Positions 1,647-30,678 of a stretch of 64,000 nucleotides of DNA are shown here, one piece after another. Origin of the DNA: Bacteroidetes bacterium 43-93 (lineage in GTDB: Bacteria > Bacteroidota > Bacteroidia > Chitinophagales > Chitinophagaceae); assembly GCA_001897855.1 (NCBI GenBank), contig MKUO01000001.1, positions 496,001 through 560,000 of the forward strand, written 5' to 3'. Under the pieces are notes generated by a model that did no database searches, had not been told where the DNA came from, and was given only the letters and a program-made list of their open reading frames with translations. Numbering within the stretch: position 1 is the first letter of the stretch; the number at the start of each line of letters is the position of its first letter. Made by a program: the position numbers and the translations under genes.

Positions 1647-3485
1647 TTGGAAGAAAACCAAATTATTAACCAAACTGCGGCTCTGCCAGACAGCCAGAGC
1701 GGCGCTCACGACGATTTCGATTGGAGCGTAGACAAAAGGAACGTAGCTTCTTACAGTAAAGATAAGCGCGTTGAAATGGAAAAAGTGTATGACAGCACTT
1801 TTAAAACTATTGACGAAGCACAACTGTTGCAAGGTACTATCGTAGGCCTTACAAAAACAGATGCTATCGTTAACATCGGTTTCAAATCAGATGGCCTGAT
1901 CTCTCTGAACGAATTCCGCGATATGCCTGATGTTAAGATCGGTGAAGATATCGAGGTAATGGTTGTAGAGAAAGAAGACAGGAATGGCCACTTGCACCTG
2001 AGCCGCAAAATGGCTCGTGCTGCACGCGCATGGCAGAAGATCGTTGACTTCTACAAAACCGGCGAAGTGGTTACTGGTACTATCACCAGCAAAACCAAGG
2101 GCGGTCTTATCGTGGATGTTTACGGACTGGAAACATTCTTACCTGGTTCACAAATAGATGTGAAACCTGTAACTGATTACGATCAGTACGTGGGTAAAAC
2201 AATGGATTTCAAAGTTGTTAAGATCAACGAAGCTATCCGTAACGCTGTTGTGTCTCACAAAGCGCTTATCGAAAGCGATATCGAACAGCAACGCAGCGTT
2301 ATCATTTCTCAGCTCGAAAAAGGACAGGTACTGGAAGGTACTGTTAAGAATGTTACCGATTTCGGTGCGTTCATCGACCTGGGTGGTGTTGACGGATTGT
2401 TATACATCACAGACATTAGCTGGGGCCGCGTAACGCATCCTAGCGAAGTGCTCGAAAACGGACAGAAATTGAATGTGGTTGTTCTTGACTTCGATGACGA
2501 GAAGAAACGCATCAGCCTCGGTCTGAAACAATTGACTGCTCATCCTTGGGATAGCCTGCCAGAAGATATTAAGGAAGGTGCTAAGGTGAAGGGTAAAGTA
2601 GTAAACATCGAAGATTACGGCGCATTCCTGGAAATCATGCCTGGCGTAGAAGGCCTGGTACACGTTTCTGAGATCACCTGGTCTTCTCAGCCTATCAACG
2701 CGAAAGAATTCTTCCGCATGGGCGATGAATACGAAGCAGTTGTTGTAACACTTGATAAAGACGAGCGCAAAATGAGCCTGTCTATCAAACAACTGACTGA
2801 AGATCCTTGGGATACAATCGAAAATAAATTCCCGATCGATAGCCGCCACAAAGGCATCGTTAAAAACATCACTCCTTACGGCGTATTCGTAGAACTGGAA
2901 ACAGGTATCGGCGGTATGATCCACATCAGCGACCTGAGCTGGATCAAACGTTACAACCACCCAAGCGAATTCACTAAAGTTGGTGATGAGATCGAAGTAG
3001 CAATACTGGGTATTGATAAAGAAAACCGCAAACTGTCTCTGGGACACAAGCAACTGGAAGACGATCCTTGGAATACATTTGAAACTGTATTCCCTATCGG
3101 TAGCGTACACGAAGGTACTGTTACCCGTAAGGACGATAAAGGTGCTACTGTTCAACTTCAATATGGCCTGGAAGCTTACGCTCCTGCACGCCACCTGAAG
3201 AAAGAGGATGGCAGCACGGTAGAAGTGGAAGCTGTTTTACCTTTCATGATCATCGAATTTGATCGTAACGACAAACGTATCATGGTTTCTCACACTAAGG
3301 TTTGGGAACAAGGTAAGGTAGAAGAAAAAGAAGCTGCTAAGAAAGAAGCCACTGCTGAAGGTGAGAAAACCAAGAAAGCAGTTAAGAACATCCAAAGCAA
3401 GGTTGAAAAACCAACTTTAGGTGATCTGGGCGCTCTGGCTGCTCTGAAAGACAAAATGAAGAAAGCTGAAGGCGAAAGCGAATAA
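1647..3485 (+). CDS. rpsA: 30S ribosomal protein S1
   Basis: A 612-aa protein with a run of S1/OB-fold RNA-binding repeats. Several repeats carry the typical pattern of G-x-V-x-x-(I/V)-x-x-(F/Y)-GAF(I/V), then a GLxHxSE/D segment and a KRISLGLKQL-type ending. Six repeats are expected for a bacterial S1 of this length. The N-terminus is acidic; the C-terminal 60 residues are rich in Lys, Glu and Ala and probably disordered. It binds mRNA and delivers it to the 30S subunit. The start is TTG, forced by an upstream in-frame stop and supported by a full Shine-Dalgarno. The gene is monocistronic, ending at a strong hairpin terminator. Confidence 0.96.
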   Translation: MEENQIINQTAALPDSQSGAHDDFDWSVDKRNVASYSKDKRVEMEKVYDSTFKTIDEAQLLQGTIVGLTKTDAIVNIGFKSDGLISLNEFRDMPDVKIGEDIEVMVVEKEDRNGHLHLSRKMARAARAWQKIVDFYKTGEVVTGTITSKTKGGLIVDVYGLETFLPGSQIDVKPVTDYDQYVGKTMDFKVVKINEAIRNAVVSHKALIESDIEQQRSVIISQLEKGQVLEGTVKNVTDFGAFIDLGGVDGLLYITDISWGRVTHPSEVLENGQKLNVVVLDFDDEKKRISLGLKQLTAHPWDSLPEDIKEGAKVKGKVVNIEDYGAFLEIMPGVEGLVHVSEITWSSQPINAKEFFRMGDEYEAVVVTLDKDERKMSLSIKQLTEDPWDTIENKFPIDSRHKGIVKNITPYGVFVELETGIGGMIHISDLSWIKRYNHPSEFTKVGDEIEVAILGIDKENRKLSLGHKQLEDDPWNTFETVFPIGSVHEGTVTRKDDKGATVQLQYGLEAYAPARHLKKEDGSTVEVEAVLPFMIIEFDRNDKRIMVSHTKVWEQGKVEEKEAAKKEATAEGEKTKKAVKNIQSKVEKPTLGDLGALAALKDKMKKAEGESE

Positions 3486-22733: not shown

Positions 22734-24317
22734 TTAGTGCATTGCTTCAGACATGTCTATCTTGCCTTGTTTCTTATTGCCTTTCACCATCAATATGAAT
22801 GGTATACATATCAGGAACAGGATACCCAGGTACATGAATATATCCATGTACGATAAAACTGTTGCCTGCTTGTTCACCGAGAAATCGATCATCTGGTAAG
22901 CACTTCGGGTAGCATTTTCAGGTGTCATACCATGTGCTATGAAATTGCCTTCCATGCCATGTAGTTTTTGCTGCATCATCGGGCTGTTCGATGTCAGGTT
23001 TACCACAAGGTCGCTGCGGTGCGCCATATTCCTGCGCGATATCATAGTGGTGATCAACGCCACACCAAACGAACCACCCAGTTGGCGCATCATCCCGGTA
23101 AAGGCCGCGCCTTGTCCTATCTGCTGGCCCTTCAGGGTAGAGAGCGACAGGGTAGTGATGGGGATAAACAGCATACCCATACCTACACCACGCACTATCA
23201 GCATCCAGAAGAACGCATCCTTGCCGGTATCGGGTGTTAGTATCTTATACCCCCATAGGCTGAATATAGCAAACAGGAACATACCACCTGCTACCAGGTA
23301 TTGCTGTGGCACACCTTTCTGTAGCAGGTTACCTATTATGGGCATCATAAAGGCCGTGGTCAGCGCCGCCGGTATCATCAGCATCCCAGACTGTTGTGCG
23401 GTCCATCCCAGTGTTGCCTGTGTATATAAGGGTATCACAAAGGTAGAACCATACAACCCGAATCCTAATATAAAGGACAGGATAGTACCAATGCGCAGGT
23501 TACCATTCTTCAATACCCTCAATTCTACGATCGGGTTCTTGTATACCAACTCACGCCAGATGAAGAAATAAAAGCCAAGCCCCGCCACTATTGTAAGTAC
23601 TACAATACTCGTAGCGTTAAACCAGTCATCTTCCTGCCCGCGTTCCAGTACATATTGCAGGGAACCTACAGCTGCTGCAAGGAAGGCAATGCCCCACCAG
23701 TCGATCTCGTTGGCAGCTTTCTTCTCAGCATATTTAGGACTGCGTACAAATTGCAGGGTAAGCAATGTTGCTATAACACCTATCGGAATGTTGATATAGA
23801 ATATATACGGCCATGAGAAGTGGTCTACTATATAACCTCCTAATGGTGGTCCTAAAGTAGGGCCAATGATCACACCTAAACCATAGATCGCCTGCGCCAT
23901 ACCTCGTTTTTCAGGAGGGTAGCTTTCGGTGATGATGGTTTGCGACGTTACCAGCAGGGCGCCCCCCCCCAAACCTTGTATAAAGCGGAAGAGCACCAGC
24001 TCCCATATATTGGTTGCATTACCACAGAGAAAGGATGATACGGTAAAGATGATGATGGATGCGGCAAAATAGTTGCGCCTGCCAAACTGCTGCGATAGCC
24101 AGCTGGTCATCGGCACTACTATTACGTTGGCGATGGCATACGCGGTGATCACCCAGCCCACTTCGTTAAGGGTGGCACCCAGGTTACCGCGCATATCATT
24201 CAGCGCCACGTTTACGATGGTGGTATCTACGATCTCCAGCAGGGCACAGAATATCGCTGTGATGGTGATAATGACCCTGCGGGCACCGTATTCTACCAAT
24301 GAATTTTGATCTGTCAT
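22734..24317 (-). CDS. DHA2 family (EmrB/QacA-type) drug efflux MFS permease
   Basis: A 527-aa transporter with 14 predicted spans. The motif C segment (GLGVIIGPTLGPPLGGYIVD) marks proton-coupled drug antiporters, and WLSQQFGRRNYF is the MFS loop 2-3 motif A. With the membrane-fusion protein (24352) and TolC (25497) it would form a tripartite pump expelling hydrophobic compounds. The substrate is unknown. It is last in the tetR-tolC-emrA-emrB-like operon, 34 bp after the fusion-protein gene. Confidence 0.93.
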   Translation of the reverse strand: MTDQNSLVEYGARRVIITITAIFCALLEIVDTTIVNVALNDMRGNLGATLNEVGWVITAYAIANVIVVPMTSWLSQQFGRRNYFAASIIIFTVSSFLCGNATNIWELVLFRFIQGLGGGALLVTSQTIITESYPPEKRGMAQAIYGLGVIIGPTLGPPLGGYIVDHFSWPYIFYINIPIGVIATLLTLQFVRSPKYAEKKAANEIDWWGIAFLAAAVGSLQYVLERGQEDDWFNATSIVVLTIVAGLGFYFFIWRELVYKNPIVELRVLKNGNLRIGTILSFILGFGLYGSTFVIPLYTQATLGWTAQQSGMLMIPAALTTAFMMPIIGNLLQKGVPQQYLVAGGMFLFAIFSLWGYKILTPDTGKDAFFWMLIVRGVGMGMLFIPITTLSLSTLKGQQIGQGAAFTGMMRQLGGSFGVALITTMISRRNMAHRSDLVVNLTSNSPMMQQKLHGMEGNFIAHGMTPENATRSAYQMIDFSVNKQATVLSYMDIFMYLGILFLICIPFILMVKGNKKQGKIDMSEAMH

Positions 24318-24351
24318 ACGTTTATTATGAAACGTGATAAGTTATAATGGA

Positions 24352-25452
24352 TTAATCTAAGTGTACATCAACCTGCACGTTCATACCGGGGCGCAGCTGA
24401 TCTACCAGTTTATCGTTCTTGTTCACAAAATCTATGCGAACAGGTACGCGTTGCACTACTTTGATGAAGTTGCCGGAAGCATTGTCGGGAGGCAGCAGGG
24501 CAAATTTAGCGCCTGTTGCAGGAGACAATGAAGATAACCTTGCTTCGAAGTCATGGCCGGGGAATGCATCCACACTCACGATCACTTTTTGGCCTTCTTT
24601 CATTTTTTCCAGCTGTGTTTCTTTAAAGTTGGCTGTTATCCATATACCGCCTGTGCCTACTATGTTAAACAGGGATTGGCCTGCCTGTACCAGTTGGCCT
24701 GGTTGAATGTTTATTTTAGACAACCTGCCATCCTGTGGTGCAGTGATCACCGTATAAGACAATTGCAGTTTTGCATTCTCCACTTCTGCCATCCTTTGTT
24801 TGATGGTAGCATTAGCTACACCCACCTGCTGAGAAGTAGCTGCACTTTGTGATGATGCGGCACTTGCCTGGCGGGATGCTACGTTCTTTTGTTCTGTCAG
24901 TCCCTGCAATTGGCGTTCTGCAGTTTGCTTTGCAGCTTGTGCCTGCTCGTATTGTTGCTGGGTGATGGAGTGATCTTTTATCAGGTTGGCATACCTGTTA
25001 TAGTCTTGTGTAGCGCGCCATACGTTCACTTTTGCTGCTTCTATCTGCGCATCCAGTGCAGATACATTGGCTTGCGAACCGGCAACGCTCGCCTGCGATG
25101 CTGTGGTAGTGGCTTCTGCAATACCAAGGCTGCTTTGTGCGGCAGCAAGGGCAGCTTCTGCCTGCTCCAGTTTTATCTTCAGGTCGCGGTCATCCAGTAT
25201 CAGCAAGGTATCACCCTTCTTTACCAGTTGGTTATCTGCAACACGTATTTCAGTTACGTATCCCGGTACGCGGGGTATCACGGGGCTGATGTAGGCATCG
25301 ACCTGTGCATCATCTGTGTCTTCGTGGTGTAGAGAGTGTACATATTTGGTAATGCCGAATGTAGCACCTACCACTACCAGCGCTCCTAAAACGATGGCAA
25401 AACGTCTGTTCTTTGGTTTTGGCTGTTGAGCTTGTGTTGTATCCTGTGACAT
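24352..25452 (-). CDS. HlyD/EmrA family membrane-fusion protein
   Basis: A 366-aa periplasmic adaptor. One N-terminal membrane anchor (about 18-38) is followed by the first half of a lipoyl domain (AYISPVIPRVPGYVTEIRV), an Ala/Gln-rich coiled-coil hairpin (about 80-215), the second lipoyl half (TVITAPQDGRLSKINIQPGQ) and a beta-barrel domain. It bridges the MFS pump and the TolC channel. The Ala/Gln/Ser repeats in the coiled coil explain its low complexity. Confidence 0.93.
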   Translation of the reverse strand: MSQDTTQAQQPKPKNRRFAIVLGALVVVGATFGITKYVHSLHHEDTDDAQVDAYISPVIPRVPGYVTEIRVADNQLVKKGDTLLILDDRDLKIKLEQAEAALAAAQSSLGIAEATTTASQASVAGSQANVSALDAQIEAAKVNVWRATQDYNRYANLIKDHSITQQQYEQAQAAKQTAERQLQGLTEQKNVASRQASAASSQSAATSQQVGVANATIKQRMAEVENAKLQLSYTVITAPQDGRLSKINIQPGQLVQAGQSLFNIVGTGGIWITANFKETQLEKMKEGQKVIVSVDAFPGHDFEARLSSLSPATGAKFALLPPDNASGNFIKVVQRVPVRIDFVNKNDKLVDQLRPGMNVQVDVHLD

Positions 25453-25496
25453 ATATTCTGTATTAATAGTTTTGATTAATGTGTAATAATGAGTGG

Positions 25497-26858
25497 TTAT
25501 TGATTATTTGTTTGTTGATCCAGGGCACCTGCGGTCAGCAGTAATTTTTTATAGGCCACTACGGCATCTGCTTTAGAGAAGGCATAGTTCAGTTGCGCCT
25601 GTAGTTGTGCTACGTCCGCATCCAGCAGGTCTGTAGTGGTAGCAAGGCTGTTATCGTATTTGTTCTTTACTATACGGTAGTTCTCGTTAGCCTGCTCGCG
25701 GGCTGTATTATATACATCTATCTTCTTGGTGGCAGACAGGTAGTTTTGATAAGCCTGGGCTACCTGCAGCCTTATGTTATCGCTCATCATATCCTGGCTC
25801 ACTTCTGTCTGGTGAAGGCGTGCCTTGGCTTGCGCTACTTTTGATCCTGTTTTCCATAGGGAAGACGGGCTGTATTTCAAGCCAACACCGCCGTTGATCA
25901 CGTTGGTCAGCGTTACCAGGTTCGGGATGTCAGCAGCTATATAACCACCTGTCAGCGCCAGGCTGGGGTAGTAGTCGCCCTGTGCGGCTTTCACGCCTGC
26001 TTTCGCAGCTTTGATGCGCCAGTTCATGGCATCCAGGTCTTTACGGTTTTGCAGGGCTGCAGTCTCCCATGTTTCAAAGTTTTTGCTATCGCTTACCGGT
26101 ACAAATGCTGTAGAATCCGGTATCAGGATAGTTTCTTCCGGCAGGCCCAGCATCAGGTTCATGCTGATGTAGGTGATCTTCCAGTTGTTTTCTGCATCCA
26201 GCAATGCACTTTCAATGTTCGATTGCTGCAGTTGCACTTTTAGCAGGTCGTTACGTGCCATCAGGCCGTTCTTTTCCATATTGCTGAAGTCCTGCACACG
26301 TTGCTTTGATTGTTTCAGGTTTTCTTTAACGATCTCCAGCGCTGCTTTTGCCTTATACATATTGCTATATGCTGCAATGGTATTGGCGATCACCTCTTCG
26401 CGGTCGTTCTCCGCATCCAGCGTAGTGGCTTTCTGCAGGTACTTAGCCGCATTGATGCCGTTTTGGATCTTAAAACCCGCAAACACCGGTATGGCAAGGT
26501 TGGCCATAGCATAGGCCGCCTGGTTTACAGTAGGCATTGCGCTGGCAGAGGAGCCCGATCCTGAACCTCCTTCGCCACCCGAGCCGCTGCTACCCAGCTT
26601 CAGCTTCAGGTCTATATTAGGCTGGTTCAGCCTCAGGTAAGACCCAGAAACGTTCAGGTCGGGCAGGCGGCGTTCCCTTGCTTCGCGCAGGGAGGCGGCA
26701 GCCTCACTTACCTTAGCGCCGTTTAGTTTCAATTGTTTACTGTTTTGCAGGCTCAGGGTGATGGCTTCATCGAGAGACAGGTTTCTTGTCTCTTGTGCAT
26801 AAGCGCTCACTGATAAGACAACAGCCATAAAAGCTGCTATATATTTATTGTTCTTCAT
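25497..26858 (-). CDS. TolC family outer-membrane efflux protein
   Basis: A 453-aa outer-membrane channel. A signal peptide ends near AYA-QE (about residue 21), and two OEP repeats follow (about 25-220 and 240-440), with the NLSLDEAITLSLQNS opening typical of the family. A Gly/Ser-rich stretch (about 92-106) lies in a loop. Its start overlaps the tetR stop by 14 nt, so translation is probably coupled. Confidence 0.93.
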   Translation of the reverse strand: MKNNKYIAAFMAVVLSVSAYAQETRNLSLDEAITLSLQNSKQLKLNGAKVSEAAASLREARERRLPDLNVSGSYLRLNQPNIDLKLKLGSSGSGGEGGSGSGSSASAMPTVNQAAYAMANLAIPVFAGFKIQNGINAAKYLQKATTLDAENDREEVIANTIAAYSNMYKAKAALEIVKENLKQSKQRVQDFSNMEKNGLMARNDLLKVQLQQSNIESALLDAENNWKITYISMNLMLGLPEETILIPDSTAFVPVSDSKNFETWETAALQNRKDLDAMNWRIKAAKAGVKAAQGDYYPSLALTGGYIAADIPNLVTLTNVINGGVGLKYSPSSLWKTGSKVAQAKARLHQTEVSQDMMSDNIRLQVAQAYQNYLSATKKIDVYNTAREQANENYRIVKNKYDNSLATTTDLLDADVAQLQAQLNYAFSKADAVVAYKKLLLTAGALDQQTNNQ

Positions 26859-27477
26859 AAGTCAGTATTGCTTTAAAGATGGATTTTAAATGTAGTGTTA
26901 GCTTCTTTTTTATCAGTTTCTGAAATTCTTCTTCAGGCATATCTGCCAGGTTGTTCACTTCTTTATAGAAGGGCAGGGTGGTCATTACCTGGTTAGCAGT
27001 CCCCAGCATCGTGGCCATCATCATAGGTATATCTATGTTCTTTTTAAATACACCTTTCTTTTGTCCTTCCTTTATTATCTGCTTTACCAGTTCCTGATTG
27101 CGGCGCTTCATCTCCAGCAGCATATCGGTGGCACAGCTTAGCTTATTGGCCATTTGCTCGCGCAGCACTATTTTATGAAAGCTCATCTGGCCGAAGTACT
27201 TCTGCAGGTAGCTGTCAATGAGCTGGTACACCTTCTGCATAGGTTCCATTTTATCGTCCGCTATCAGGCTTTCCAGTTGCAGCCTTATATAATTCGAATG
27301 TTTTTCAAAAACAGCTTCCAGCAGTTTTTCCTTCGAGCCGAAGTAATACGATATCATCGCAATGTTCACATCCGCCTCTTTTGCTATATCACGTACCGAA
27401 GTGCCATCGAAACCGTTCTTGGCGAACAGCTTCTGGGCTACCTCCAGTATTTGCGTTTTTTTATCTGTAGACTCCAT
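26845..27477 (-). CDS. TetR/AcrR family repressor of the efflux operon
   Basis: A 210-aa regulator. The N-terminal helix-turn-helix region reads FAKNGFDGTSVRDIAKEADV then NIAMISYYFGSKEKLLEAVF, a textbook TetR signature. The C-terminal ligand domain is variable, so the inducer cannot be guessed. It is the first gene of its own operon, followed by tolC, the fusion protein and the pump. A 30-bp inverted repeat over its promoter is the likely operator. Confidence 0.93.
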   Translation of the reverse strand: MESTDKKTQILEVAQKLFAKNGFDGTSVRDIAKEADVNIAMISYYFGSKEKLLEAVFEKHSNYIRLQLESLIADDKMEPMQKVYQLIDSYLQKYFGQMSFHKIVLREQMANKLSCATDMLLEMKRRNQELVKQIIKEGQKKGVFKKNIDIPMMMATMLGTANQVMTTLPFYKEVNNLADMPEEEFQKLIKKKLTLHLKSIFKAILTYEEQ

Positions 27478-27536: not shown

Positions 27537-27616
27537 AATTAAGTTTTTATCTATAGGCTATATAGAGATAATTGATGGAGGGCTTCTGGCTTCATTCTAG
27601 CGGGGTTCCCCTTGTC

Positions 27617-27701
27617 GTCATTGCGGAGCTAATCCGCAAACTTCCTCCACCTTTGTCATTGCGGGCTTGACCCGCAATCTAACTTTTGACGTCAGTCAAG
27701 T
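27617..27701 (+). repeat. Palindromic repeat unit L1
   Basis: Three hairpins in a row: TTGCGGA-GCTAA-TCCGCAA (27621-27639), ATTGCGGG-CTTGA-CCCGCAAT (27658-27678) and TTGAC-GTCA-GTCAA (27686-27699). The first two are joined by ACTTCCTCCACCTTT. The unit aligns end to end with L2 (27771-27854), and its second half is nearly identical to R (28301-28347). Confidence 0.88.
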
Positions 27702-27713
27702 GTTTAATAACGC

Positions 27714-27770
27714 ACTATTATCGCGTTAATAGTAGATGCTGCATCGAGTTCAGAGTGCCTTCCCCATCTC
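27714..27770 (+). repeat. Linker palindromes preceding L2
   Basis: ACTATTA-TCGCGT-TAATAGT (27714-27733) is a perfect 7-bp inverted repeat. It is followed by AGATGCTGCATCGAGTTCAG, a degenerate form of the TGCTGAATCAAGTTCAGCA palindrome found intact at 28219, then GTGCCTTCCCCATCTC, which matches the bases ahead of copy R. Confidence 0.7.
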
Positions 27771-27854
27771 GTGATTGCAGGCCCGGCTCGCAGACTTCCT
27801 CCAGCTTTATCATTCCGGGCTTTACCCGTAATCTACTTTTGACGGTAGTCAAAT
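27771..27854 (+). repeat. Palindromic repeat unit L2 (degenerate), overlapping the nuclease stop
   Basis: It has the same order as L1 with decayed stems: GATTGCAGGC..., ACTTCCTCCAGCTTT, ATTCCGGG-CTTTA-CCCGTAAT, then an intact TTGAC-GGTA-GTCAA (27839-27852). The last palindrome contains the stop codon (27849-27851) of the leftward GIY-YIG gene. Confidence 0.8.
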
Positions 27855-28154
27855 CTCCCAATCTTTGGAAAGGTCCTCCATATGAGGATTTAGCTCTTTA
27901 ATTAAAGCTTCTTTCCATTCTCTTTTCCAGTTCTTTAACTGCTTTTCTCTTGCAATCGCGTTACTTATATCAGAATATTCTTCATAATGCACAAGTATAT
28001 TACAATTGTATTTTGAAGTAAATGATTCCGCATCTCCCAATTTATGTTCTTGCAACCTCCTTTCAAGATTAGAAGTAACACCTATGTATAATACCGTTCT
28101 GTACTTGTTAGCCAATATATATACATAGCCTTTCTTCATTGTATAAATATACAT
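27849..28154 (-). CDS. Single-domain GIY-YIG endonuclease
   Basis: A 101-aa protein consisting only of a GIY-YIG (URI) nuclease domain. GYVYILANK gives the first motif (GY-x-YIL variant), VLYIGVTSNLERRLQEHK the second with the catalytic Arg, FTSKYN follows, and Glu in AIAREKQLKNWKR is the metal ligand. No DNA-binding domain is attached. A second ATG at 28139 (MKKGYVYIL) is an equally good start. The coding end lies in a palindrome of unit L2, and further palindromes sit just upstream of the gene, so it appears enclosed by a repeat cassette. Its role in moving or maintaining the repeats is inference. Confidence 0.85.
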   Translation of the reverse strand: MYIYTMKKGYVYILANKYRTVLYIGVTSNLERRLQEHKLGDAESFTSKYNCNILVHYEEYSDISNAIAREKQLKNWKREWKEALIKELNPHMEDLSKDWEI

Positions 28155-28196
28155 GTACGGCTGTTACCTCCGCAATAGTGAAGTGTTATGATAAAT

Positions 28197-28286
28197 TTAC
28201 CGTAGCCGGTAATAGTAGATGCTGAATCAAGTTCAGCATGACAAAAAAGAGAGGTACATAACATCCTGCTGAATCAAGTTCAGTAT
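28197..28286 (+). repeat. Palindrome cluster upstream of the GIY-YIG gene
   Basis: TTACCG-TAGC-CGGTAA (28197-28212), ATGCTGAA-TCAAG-TTCAGCAT (28219-28239), and a second copy TGCTGAA-TCAAG-TTCAGTA (28267-28285) with one mismatch. The TAATAGTAGATGCTG string at 28210-28224 also occurs at 27727-27741, with the preceding hairpin replaced by an unrelated one. Confidence 0.85.
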
Positions 28287-28300
28287 GCCCTCCTCATCTT

Positions 28301-28347
28301 GTCATTGCGGGCTTGACCCGCAATCTACTTTTGACGTTAGTCAAGTG
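28301..28347 (+). repeat. Palindromic repeat copy R
   Basis: ATTGCGGG-CTTGA-CCCGCAAT (28304-28324), CTACTT, then TTGAC-GTTA-GTCAA (28331-28344). This 47-bp stretch matches 27655-27702 of L1 apart from a one-base indel and one substitution, in the same orientation. It lacks the first hairpin of the L units. Confidence 0.88.
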
Positions 28348-28456
28348 TTACGAAACATGTTATATGCTTCAGTTCTAAACCATTTTTTGCAACCTCACCC
28401 ATATTCCCGAACTTTGTACTATTCTGTTCTTTGACATCCTGTAAACCCCGGTAAAA

Positions 28457-28566: not shown

Positions 28567-30678
28567 CTAACTGATCTTTGCCCAGTGCGATTGGTGAGAT
28601 TTCTCGGCAAGCATAGCACGGAGCGGGTAGTATTGTGCAGAAGTAAGCCCCGGGTCTTCGCTAATGATCTGTTGTGCTGCAATACGCGTTTGTTCTAATA
28701 TGGCGCTGTCTGCTACTATATCCGCTATCTTAAACTTCAGTACGCCGCTTTGTTGTGTTCCAGATAGGTTGCCCGGCCCGCGCATCGCTAAGTCCTTCTC
28801 TGCTATGATAAAGCCATTGCTGGTGCTTACCATTATCTTCATACGCTCGGCACTGTCGTTGCCCAGCTTGTTGCCGGTAAGCAGTATGCAGTAAGACTGC
28901 TCCGCACCACGGCCAACCCGCCCGCGTAGCTGGTGCAGTTGCGATAGCCCAAAGCGTTCAGCGCTTTCTATCAGCATCACGCTGGCATTAGGTACGTTCA
29001 CGCCTACTTCTATCACGGTGGTAGATACCAGTATATTGGCCTCGCCCGATACAAAGCGTTGCATATTGCGTTCCTTTAGTGCGGCTTCCTGCTTGCCATG
29101 CACCATCGCTATCTTATACTTGTGCTCCGGAAACCAGATCTTCACCTGCTCATAGCCAGCCATCAGGCTTTCGTAGTCCATCTTCTCAGACTCTTCTATC
29201 AGCGGGTACACAATGTACGCCTGTCGTCCTTTGTTGATCTCGCTCTTGATGAACTCCATCACATTGGCACGGCGCATCTCGTTGCGGTGTACGGTCTTGA
29301 TCTCTTGTCTGCCCGGCGGCAGTTCATCTATCACCGATATGTCCAGGTCGCCATACATGGTCATAGCAAGGGTACGTGGTATAGGCGTGGCGGTCATCAC
29401 TAATACGTGTGGCGGTAGTTCGTTCTTCTTCCATAGCTTGGCACGTTGCTCTACGCCAAAGCGGTGCTGCTCATCTATAATGGCAAGCCCCAGGTTCTTG
29501 AACTGCACGGCATCTTCTATCAAGGCATGGGTGCCCACAATAATAGGTAGCTCTCCTGTGCTCAGTTGTTGTAGTATGGCCTTGCGTTCCTTGCCCTTCA
29601 CATTACCTGTAAGGAGGGCAACAGGTATGCCCATCTCAGCCAATAGCGACTTGATGCCGTTATAGTGTTGCGTAGCTAATATCTCGGTAGGCGCCATCAT
29701 ACATGCCTGGAAGCCGTTATCCATCGCCAGCAGCATAGACATCACCGCAACAATGGTCTTACCGCTACCCACATCGCCTTGCACCAGTCGGTTCATTTGC
29801 TTGCCGGTGGCAGTATCTACGCGTATCTCCTTCAGTACACGCTTCTGTGCTCCTGTAAGGCTAAAGGGCAGATGCTTGTTGAAGAAGTCGTTGAAGTAGT
29901 CACCTACCTTCTCGAACTTGAAGCCCCTTTGTATGGTATGCTGCAACCGCAGTTGCGCTATCTTTAGCTGAGATACCAACAGCTCTTCAAACTTCAGCCT
30001 GTGTCTTGCAGCCTGCAGATGCTCCTCACTATCCGGGAAGTGTATCCACAGAATAGCCTGGTAGCGGTTGCATAGTTTGTATTGCGCGAGTATATGATGA
30101 GGCAACGTCTCAGGTATATCACCCGGGCGTATACGCTCAAACAGGTTCTGTGTGATCTTGGCAAAAGACCGGTTGCTGATGCCTTTCACACGCAGCTTCT
30201 CGGTAGTAGAGTACACGGGCTGCATGCTTGGTACGCTGGCATCTGTCGTTAAAGGTTCCAATTCAGGATGGGCTATGTTGTATGCCCCATTGAATACCGA
30301 CACCTTACCAAAGAGTATATACCTGCCACTTTCTACAAGCGACTTGCGCACCCATTGTATATTCTGGAACCATATCAGCTCTATGCGTCCCGTATCATCA
30401 TAAAAGGTAGCTGTGAGCCGCTTCTTGCGGGCATCGCCTTCTTCGTAGATGTTCACCAGCGTACCTATTAGCTGCACATACTCGGTAGTGCCGCCAATAG
30501 CAGCCACCTTATCCACGCGCGACCTATCGAAGTAGCGGTAAGGGTAGTGCTCCAGCAGGTCGCCAAAGCTGGCGATCTGTAGTTCCTTACGCAGCAGTTC
30601 GCCACGTTGGGGGCCAACGCCTTTCAGGTATTCTACCGGTGAATCTAATATGGGGGCTGTATTGCTGATGCTGATAAT
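28567..30678 (-). CDS. recG: ATP-dependent DNA helicase RecG (non-ATG start)
   Basis: RecG reverses stalled replication forks. Helicase motifs present include Walker A GDVGSGKT, DEQHRFG (motif II), TATPIPRT (motif III), and the C-terminal QLRGRVGRG. The OB-fold wedge domain is N-terminal. The first GTG (30516) gives 649 aa but cuts off a conserved opening (SPVEYLKGVGPQRGELL, then HYPYRYFDRS) that is in frame upstream. Between the upstream stop (30726-30724) and that GTG there is no ATG, GTG or TTG. I place the start at ATT 30678, giving about 703 aa, the usual RecG length; the exact codon is uncertain. A TATATTTG box ends only 6 nt before it, so the mRNA may be leaderless. Confidence 0.88.
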   Translation of the reverse strand: MISISNTAPILDSPVEYLKGVGPQRGELLRKELQIASFGDLLEHYPYRYFDRSRVDKVAAIGGTTEYVQLIGTLVNIYEEGDARKKRLTATFYDDTGRIELIWFQNIQWVRKSLVESGRYILFGKVSVFNGAYNIAHPELEPLTTDASVPSMQPVYSTTEKLRVKGISNRSFAKITQNLFERIRPGDIPETLPHHILAQYKLCNRYQAILWIHFPDSEEHLQAARHRLKFEELLVSQLKIAQLRLQHTIQRGFKFEKVGDYFNDFFNKHLPFSLTGAQKRVLKEIRVDTATGKQMNRLVQGDVGSGKTIVAVMSMLLAMDNGFQACMMAPTEILATQHYNGIKSLLAEMGIPVALLTGNVKGKERKAILQQLSTGELPIIVGTHALIEDAVQFKNLGLAIIDEQHRFGVEQRAKLWKKNELPPHVLVMTATPIPRTLAMTMYGDLDISVIDELPPGRQEIKTVHRNEMRRANVMEFIKSEINKGRQAYIVYPLIEESEKMDYESLMAGYEQVKIWFPEHKYKIAMVHGKQEAALKERNMQRFVSGEANILVSTTVIEVGVNVPNASVMLIESAERFGLSQLHQLRGRVGRGAEQSYCILLTGNKLGNDSAERMKIMVSTSNGFIIAEKDLAMRGPGNLSGTQQSGVLKFKIADIVADSAILEQTRIAAQQIISEDPGLTSAQYYPLRAMLAEKSHQSHWAKIS

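Follow-up and report, generated by a model that had tools for sequence, protein, structure and literature searches.

The hairpin repeats and the GIY-YIG nuclease gene between tetR and recG in Bacteroidetes bacterium 43-93 probably represent a copy of a mobile element of about 0.4 kb, in which a standalone GIY-YIG gene lies between CGTC REPs and encodes the enzyme that spreads them (probability roughly 0.6). The evidence consists of the linkage of gene and repeats across phyla, the anatomy of the unit, and its presence or absence at corresponding sites. The role of the nuclease as the enzyme that would spread the CGTC REPs, including the cutting, the choice of site and the repair, is inferred. 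The wider proposal, that the standalone GIY-YIG subfamily comprises the missing enzymes of the CGTC REPs and thereby a new class of mobile element, which moves by a structure-selective hairpin nuclease and has no DDE, HUH, tyrosine or serine recombinase, is evenly poised between acceptance and doubt. If it is true, a unit of ~0.4 kb with one gene of ~100 codons, found in many bacterial phyla, is among the smallest autonomous elements, and a nuclease class of repair and homing powers its own family of tiny elements, parallel to the RAYT/REP pair.

The repeat block in the window

The window is the 64-kb stretch of DNA that was analysed (G000:C1:496001-560000), part of a 3.99-Mb genome. Here a tetR-like gene (26845-27477) and recG (28567-30516) enclose a block of hairpin repeats with the GIY-YIG gene. 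Among records of a plasmid collection the five best matches to its RecG, at 49-55%, point to Bacteroidota. The gene (27849-28154, minus strand) encodes a protein of 101 aa (P0001) and was identified by its PF01541 match, an alignment and an AlphaFold model. The entire inserted block extends from 27600 to 28376, with edges that are approximate and set by eye. Four genomes of the same genus lack it and have a tetR-recG spacer of only 94-137 bp. An efflux-like set of genes (22734-27477; MFS transporter-like, membrane-fusion-like and outer-membrane-like, named from their translations) stands beside the TetR-like regulator, whose spacer contains the nuclease element.

The element itself runs from 28242 to 27809 (434 bp). 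It begins with a 5' REP of the TGCTGAA type, the GTC tag of which points outward from the gene (28218-28242, minus strand; strict motif, fold z -4.1). This is followed by an accessory hairpin TTACC-GGTAA in the interval between the REP and the gene (28197-28212; read from the sequence and able to fold), the gene, a second accessory hairpin TTGAC-GGTA-GTCAA over the nuclease stop codon (27839-27852; read from the sequence), and a degenerate 3' REP of the TTGCGGG type with three mismatches, also with its tag outward from the gene (27809-27833, plus strand). The two ends differ in type, TGCTGAA versus TTGCGGG. Both accessory hairpins recur in a gene-less unit on contig C17 of the same genome.

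The gene-less, MITE-like unit L1 (27655-27757; direct-repeat families D1-D4) is comprised of an intact REP at its outer end (27655-27679, plus strand; strict motif, fold z -5.4), a TTGAC-GTCAA hairpin (27686-27699) and a degenerate REP of the TGCTGAA type. Two degenerate REPs on the plus strand were recognised by eye within an 81-bp repeat (27606-27686 / 27760-27840): GTCATTGCGGA-GCTAA-TCCGCAA at 27617-27641, and the degenerate REP of unit L2 at 27771-27795, where the repeat is 77% conserved. On the other side of the gene lie a second, degenerate TGCTGAA-type REP (28265-28289, minus strand; family D3, 95% over 21 bp) and an intact REP, R (28301-28325, plus strand; strict motif), followed by a TTGAC-GTTA-GTCAA hairpin (28331-28344).

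The original prediction of nine or more hairpins of three kinds around the nuclease is borne out, some copies being degenerate. TTGCGGG-CTTGA-CCCGCAA is present at 27655, 27809 (three mismatches) and 28301, TTGAC-N4-GTCAA at 27686, 27839 and 28331, and TGCTGAA-TCAAG-TTCAGCA at 28218 and, in degenerate form, at 27735 and 28265. Likewise, L1 and L2 align end to end as predicted (81 bp at 77%, offset 154 bp), and the nuclease stop codon lies within the last palindrome of L2, TTGAC-GGTA-GTCAA. The claim that all repeats share one orientation is correct for the strings of letters. Judged by the unpaired GTC tag, however, the TTGCGGG copies are plus and the TGCTGAA copies minus; these opposed tag directions are the informative feature. 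Shuffled sequences fold worse than both intact 25-mers. The pattern GTCAT+3nt..rc+ATC has three matches in the 64-kb window, all of them at the GIY-YIG gene, a clustering that exceeds chance.

In their features the repeats that surround the GIY-YIG gene agree with the CGTC REP superfamily. According to the available text of Di Nocera et al. 2013 (PMC3733652), CGTC REPs have an unpaired CGTC (or TGTC, CCTC) tag, a stem of 8-9 bp starting with AT, a loop of 4-5 and a short tail, and are known from five phyla, Bacteroidetes included. Both main palindromes of the window share with them the unpaired YGTC tag, an 8-bp stem starting with AT, a 5-nt loop and a short tail, the folded forms being ATTGCGGG-CTTGA-CCCGCAAT and ATGCTGAA-CTTGA-TTCAGCAT. 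The tag reads CGTC at 27616 and TGTC at 27654 and 28300, and of 145 outward REPs that flank nuclease genes, 115 have a pyrimidine at position -1. The copy number in the genome is modest, with 10 matches of a 24-mer (up to 3 mismatches) and 23 of a wider GCG pattern. A run of masked N lies near a REP at C27:181000-186000 (L309), so that REP counts on this contig may be lower bounds.

In the available text of the same survey, GTAG REPs pair with RAYTs, CGTC REPs have no dedicated transposase, no RAYT is flanked by CGTC repeats, and GIY-YIG is absent from the main text (PMC3733652). Because no transposase flanks CGTC REPs, the survey left their spread open. The repeats described here differ from that account in that a nuclease partner is proposed and in that several repeats of other paralogues have loops much longer than the CGTC definition. 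A hairpin-bounded partner with a single gene makes the spread of CGTC REPs directly testable.

The nuclease

Pfam assigns the whole 101-aa protein to one GIY-YIG domain (PF01541, E 1.9e-18). A T5orf172 match is weak and overlaps this domain, the single NCBIfam match is far under its cut-off, and Pfam gave no second domain, in agreement with the predicted lack of a DNA-binding domain. The residues that never vary in an alignment of 82 homologues include Y12, Y23, G25, R33, H37, E70 and N89; all of these except the glycine belong to the GIY-YIG catalytic set. The Pfam match and the conserved residues place the protein in the GIY-YIG superfamily.

In the AlphaFold model (pLDDT 89.9) the protein consists of a GIY-YIG fold and nothing more. 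The nearest solved fold is that of UPF0213 BH0048 (Foldseek; best match 1zg2, E 2.8e-4), phmmer returned 1ywl (UPF0213, E 4e-5), and the small GIY-YIG proteins of UPF0213 have the size and fold of the 101-aa protein. Slx1 entries occupy places 2-11 among the Foldseek PDB matches, with weak E-values of 0.04-0.17, and some are titled for branched-DNA processing. Slx1 has the GIY-YIG fold in common and acts on branched DNA by these titles, but it works with Slx4 and is larger. This match of the model to an Slx1-like fold is the sole structural hint, and a weak one, that the enzyme may cut hairpins selectively.

The reading frame is open across the nuclease match at the loci of 78 of 80 relatives. 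The pN/pS ratios of three nuclease pairs, 0.11, 0.14 and 0.24 (the last from four changes only; a fourth pair is identical), suggest purifying selection. The genome has six PF01541 matches, four of them small and two large (UvrC-like and a 458-aa frame).

REPs beside related nucleases

A profile of the four small GIY-YIG proteins was compared with genome contigs, and the best 80 of at least 577 loci, from many phyla, were analysed. The strict motif, GTC-AT-3nt ... 3nt'-AT-C with a spacer of 4-25, was set from the small GIY-YIG loci of the genome itself and from the available text of PMC3733652. It is present no more than 300 bp from the gene in 64 of these best 80 relatives. Its density is 3.02/kb at 0-300 bp (144 in 47.6 kb) versus 0.058/kb at 5-10 kb (33 in 565.7 kb), and five control motifs with permuted tags gave 0-2 matches each near the gene (0-0.042/kb) and no peak. 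A relaxed motif occurs within 300 bp in 79 of the 80 relatives, at 4.64/kb near the gene versus a background of 0.37/kb. The possibility raised with the original prediction, that nucleases of this family usually have no repeats beside them, is dispelled for this subfamily by both figures.

The phylum also supplied 13 multi-copy genomes with 66 nuclease genes in 60 regions. A strict match lies beside 47 of these genes and a relaxed one beside 57, which leaves 19 with no strict and 9 with no relaxed match. Within the genus a REP is present at 20 of 23 nuclease loci when loops of up to 40 nt are allowed. Three of six plasmid loci have a strict match, and at another, from Sphingobium, a variant of the GTCAC type was recognised by eye. 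Three of the four small GIY-YIG genes of the genome itself have strict matches adjacent to them, with differing stem types or loops; the fourth locus (L012) has a degenerate REP only, by eye. Strict REPs were found neither alongside the two large GIY-YIG genes of the genome, nor in the 83.9 kb of 26 loci that encode large GIY-YIG proteins, nor at six small GIY-YIG genes outside the subfamily. A match with a long loop does occur at the edge of one of these six loci (L199).

The REPs have a preferred arrangement around the gene. Among the nuclease relatives, the nearest upstream REP is plus in 39/53 and the nearest downstream REP minus in 41/54. The commonest layout, REP+ / gene / REP- with GTC outward, is found at 29 of 43 two-sided loci, the other 14 being arranged otherwise. 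The left and right REPs have the same 3-nt stem code at 35 of the 43 (mean of 10,000 shuffles 6.8, maximum 16). Within genomes, stems match in 20/36 pairs from the same gene versus 14/82 between genes, a result reached by 4 of 10,000 shuffles. The REP+ gene REP- unit has a median length of 418 bp (range 343-563, n=35). In some lineages the REPs are direct and not inverted, or gene and REP are repeated in tandem (L048, L049, L055, L189); L189 (G066:C86:42039-49140) consists of three tandem copies of the nuclease and two hairpins with a period of ~420 bp.

Copies and nuclease lineage

A genome can contain up to 13 copies of the nuclease. Copies from two sites of one genome agree at 93.8% over 481 bp in one case (L168/L170) and at 92.8% over 609 bp in another (L147/L148). 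The homology between L168 and L171 (78.6%) covers 2937-3349, the REPs spanning 2939-3348; it starts 2 bp before the left GTC and ends 1 bp past the right GAC. In the two closest pairs the homology extends beyond the REPs: in L168/L170 on one side, for about 60 bp, and in L147/L148 on both sides, one copy there having no strict upstream REP.

Nucleases with the same REP type are more alike. In cross-genome pairs with labels shuffled within genomes, 0/5000 shuffles reached the observed value both in family f21 and overall; the relation is weaker in the genus of the window, with 176/5000. A REP-type label was available for 73 of 93 nuclease genes. Co-inheritance of gene and repeat as one element accounts for this tracking no less well than enzyme specificity.

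Proposed mechanism and related systems

The nuclease would recognise the REP hairpin in single-stranded or extruded DNA, as the structure-selective Slx1 does on branched DNA, and would cleave next to the GTC tag, after which repair or recombination would carry the free end into a new site. GIY-YIG enzymes hydrolyse only, so that joining would need host functions. Gene-less copies, such as L1, the C17 unit and solitary REPs, would be mobilised in trans, as is thought for REPs by RAYTs.

REPtrons, composed of a RAYT and GTAG REPs, resemble the window element in that a small single-gene unit lies between REPs and gene-less REPs are dispersed. Their enzyme is repeat-specific, and the same is proposed for the GIY-YIG element. 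They combine an HUH tyrosine transposase with GTAG REPs, whereas the window element combines GIY-YIG with CGTC REPs. The window element has no Y1/HUH gene between GTAG REPs and is not itself a REPtron, which leaves the claim that it works like one unaffected. Nor does it behave as a classical DDE insertion sequence: target-site duplications are absent from 43 of 52 loci, as in shuffles, and the duplications of 10-11 bp at 3 of the 52 belong to a single repeat array, L185. No paper linking GIY-YIG nucleases to REPs was found in the searched literature, which excludes most subscription journals and bioRxiv. In the available text of a pangenome paper (PMC9465073), GIY-YIG and extragenic palindromes are both mentioned, but in passages that have no connection, and one of the two mentions is in the list of references.

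Filled, empty and gene-less sites

Gene-bearing, gene-less and REP-only states occur, and the site in the window is empty in relatives. The gene-less unit at C17:113132-113286 has both ends of the window element with the gene missing, its identity to the element being 45/48 (28242-28195) and 35/43 (27852-27810). L1 agrees with this unit at 56/67 positions over the REP end, its other end being degenerate, and the stretch of REP R (28350-28301) is identical to it at 44/50.

At four of 13 same-genus recG loci (L246, L249, L256, L257) the tetR-recG spacer is only 94-137 bp and has neither the nuclease nor a strict-motif REP. Three genomes (L252-L254) have 576-615 bp of other sequence between tetR and recG. 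Six of the 13 loci yielded no tetR within their limits; one of them, L247, shows only 124 bp of that side. The nuclease is present at none of the 13 recG loci, and the sole strict REP (L248) lies ~0.8 kb from recG.

Plasmids give further examples. The REP/nuclease block is present in two Shinella strains, and two others have neither the gene nor a visible REP. Three Sphingobium plasmids have REP-gene-REP, with the reading frame interrupted in one of them (TomTYG73). Among four gene-free Sphingobium plasmids, two have one same-stem palindrome, one has another hairpin (by eye) and one has neither. The gene-free allele of the two, TomTYG74 and TomTYG64, contains one palindrome, GTCAC.. to ..GTGAC, with the same stem as in the filled relatives.

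The Sphingobium sites suit a different explanation, homing, in which a free-standing endonuclease targets gene-free CGTC REPs, repair copies the gene and a REP in, and the REPs spread otherwise. Homing endonucleases of the I-TevI type have a GIY-YIG catalytic domain and a gene that is present or absent at orthologous sites. The window element differs from them in having neither an intron nor a separate DNA-binding domain, and in having REP hairpins as its ends. With homing, the empty allele is expected to keep a cleavage site that the filled allele no longer has; TomTYG74 and TomTYG64 agree with this, against REP-gene-REP in three relatives, and direct REP copies are present on both sides at some loci (L048, L049, L055). 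The tetR-recG and Shinella sites do not conform to this pattern. The empty spacers of four same-genus genomes have no strict REP and the two empty Shinella sites no visible one, and insertion is therefore not confined to REPs. The REP type, moreover, tracks the nuclease lineage, and the gene-free Sphingobium allele could equally have arisen by a deletion between half-stems. Homing is unlikely, although it retains a real foothold in the Sphingobium plasmids.

Domestication is improbable. The host or the repeats would keep the nuclease to remove or trim REP cruciforms, and the REP flanks would regulate its expression. The signs of purifying selection, the position of the outward hairpins ahead of the aligned nuclease start (interquartile distance 28-71 bp, n=45) and the weak Slx1-like fold match agree with such a role. 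Against it, the nuclease reaches 13 copies per genome, is arranged in tandem at L189, is present or absent at orthologous sites and has left a gene-less derivative, all of which give it the look of a mobile element and not of a fixed host gene.

Specificity of the association

It is improbable that REP-rich intergenic hot spots gather small genes, this nuclease among them, and that it has no role in REP biology. REPs are intergenic, the tetR-recG spacer contains the other sequence of L252-L254, and here and there outward REPs enclose genes other than the nuclease. The enrichment near the nuclease, however, persists in noncoding DNA alone, where it is ~16-fold (91 in 21.0 kb near the gene, 4.33/kb, versus 17 in 63.3 kb far from it, 0.27/kb). 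REP pairs that enclose the nuclease are +/- in 35/52, whereas non-nuclease pairs 400-3000 bp apart are so in 8/38 and have no bias; close pairs less than 150 bp apart are +/- in 46/100. The left and right stems usually match, and other small GIY-YIG genes are unflanked (0/6 strict).

The nuclease is present in 14 of 15 genomes of the genus, and the same 14 carry the GCG-type REP pattern in 3-23 copies each. The exception, a genome 84% complete, has neither the nuclease nor the GCG-type REP. A reversed control pattern has 3 matches across all 15. In a set of 148 genomes from the phylum, one or other of two REP patterns is present in 52/81 with the nuclease versus 10/67 without it (p 8e-10, Spearman 0.57), statistics that ignore kinship and use patterns picked from nuclease flanks in part of the same sample, which favours association. 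Subtraction of two neighbour REPs per nuclease gives 33/81 versus 10/67 (p 6e-4); with four subtracted, at 22/81 versus 10/67, significance is lost (p 0.11). The association weakens because it partly counts REPs adjoining the nuclease.

REPs also occur in genomes without this nuclease subfamily: G036 (46), G133 (10), G020 (5), G043 (4), G126 (2) and four genomes with one each. In G002 a single REP pattern reaches 406 copies, and the GIY-YIG matches of this genome are only UvrC-like and 460-aa. The original prediction had named equal abundance of the repeats in close relatives lacking the nuclease as evidence against it. Such equality is mostly not what the genomes show. The genus (14/14 versus 0/1) and the phylum (52/81 versus 10/67) speak for the prediction, the 406 copies of G002 and the p value of 0.11 against it. 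G002, a single contig with the highest REP count met and no small GIY-YIG match, has either lost the nuclease recently or has a second mover. In G020 and G036 a different small GIY-YIG gene lies just downstream of tRNA-Asn, with no strict REPs (L200, L204). It was rejected as a REP partner in these two genomes, as it has no strict REP and the G020 frame has a stop.

It is very improbable that a RAYT-type Y1 tyrosine transposase mobilises the REPs and that the GIY-YIG gene takes no part. The available text of PMC3733652 pairs GTAG REPs with RAYTs, the genome has four Y1_Tnp matches (among the matches listed, a fragment with a stop), and Y1 and REPs are associated at p 0.03 before the nuclease is considered, but a strict CGTC REP lies within 300 bp at 0/27 Y1 loci (three of 30, at contig ends, were left out), the association disappears within nuclease-positive and within nuclease-negative genomes (p 1.0 in each), Y1 is uninformative once the nuclease is known (logit -0.05), and the same text of Di Nocera et al. 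has no RAYT flanked by CGTC repeats. The pairing envisaged in the original prediction, like that of REP and RAYT with GIY-YIG in the place of the RAYT, is supported by REPs at 64/80 relatives and at 0/27 Y1 loci; as was also suggested there, the nuclease may cut or spread the repeats.

Other genes between REPs

At some same-genus loci (L300-L303, L307) non-nuclease genes lie between outward REPs. Identical outward CGTC REPs enclose a 629-aa SIR2/ThsA-like protein in the same-genus genome G153 (L302, 828-3410), a 235-aa protein of that genome that has no Pfam match and is HEPN-like by eye (L301, 870-1679), and a 218-aa protein (L300). REPs may thus bound defence-like cargo locally. Cargo cassettes as a general rule were rejected, since the 38 non-nuclease pairs 400-3000 bp apart, from 80 loci, have no outward bias. 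Two species have different inserts between apparently the same two flanking genes, at C27:76500-84500 of the genome itself (L308) and at C8:82000-90500 of G161 (L305). In both, the left REPs are plus, with one exception in L308, and the right REPs are minus, like nested brackets.
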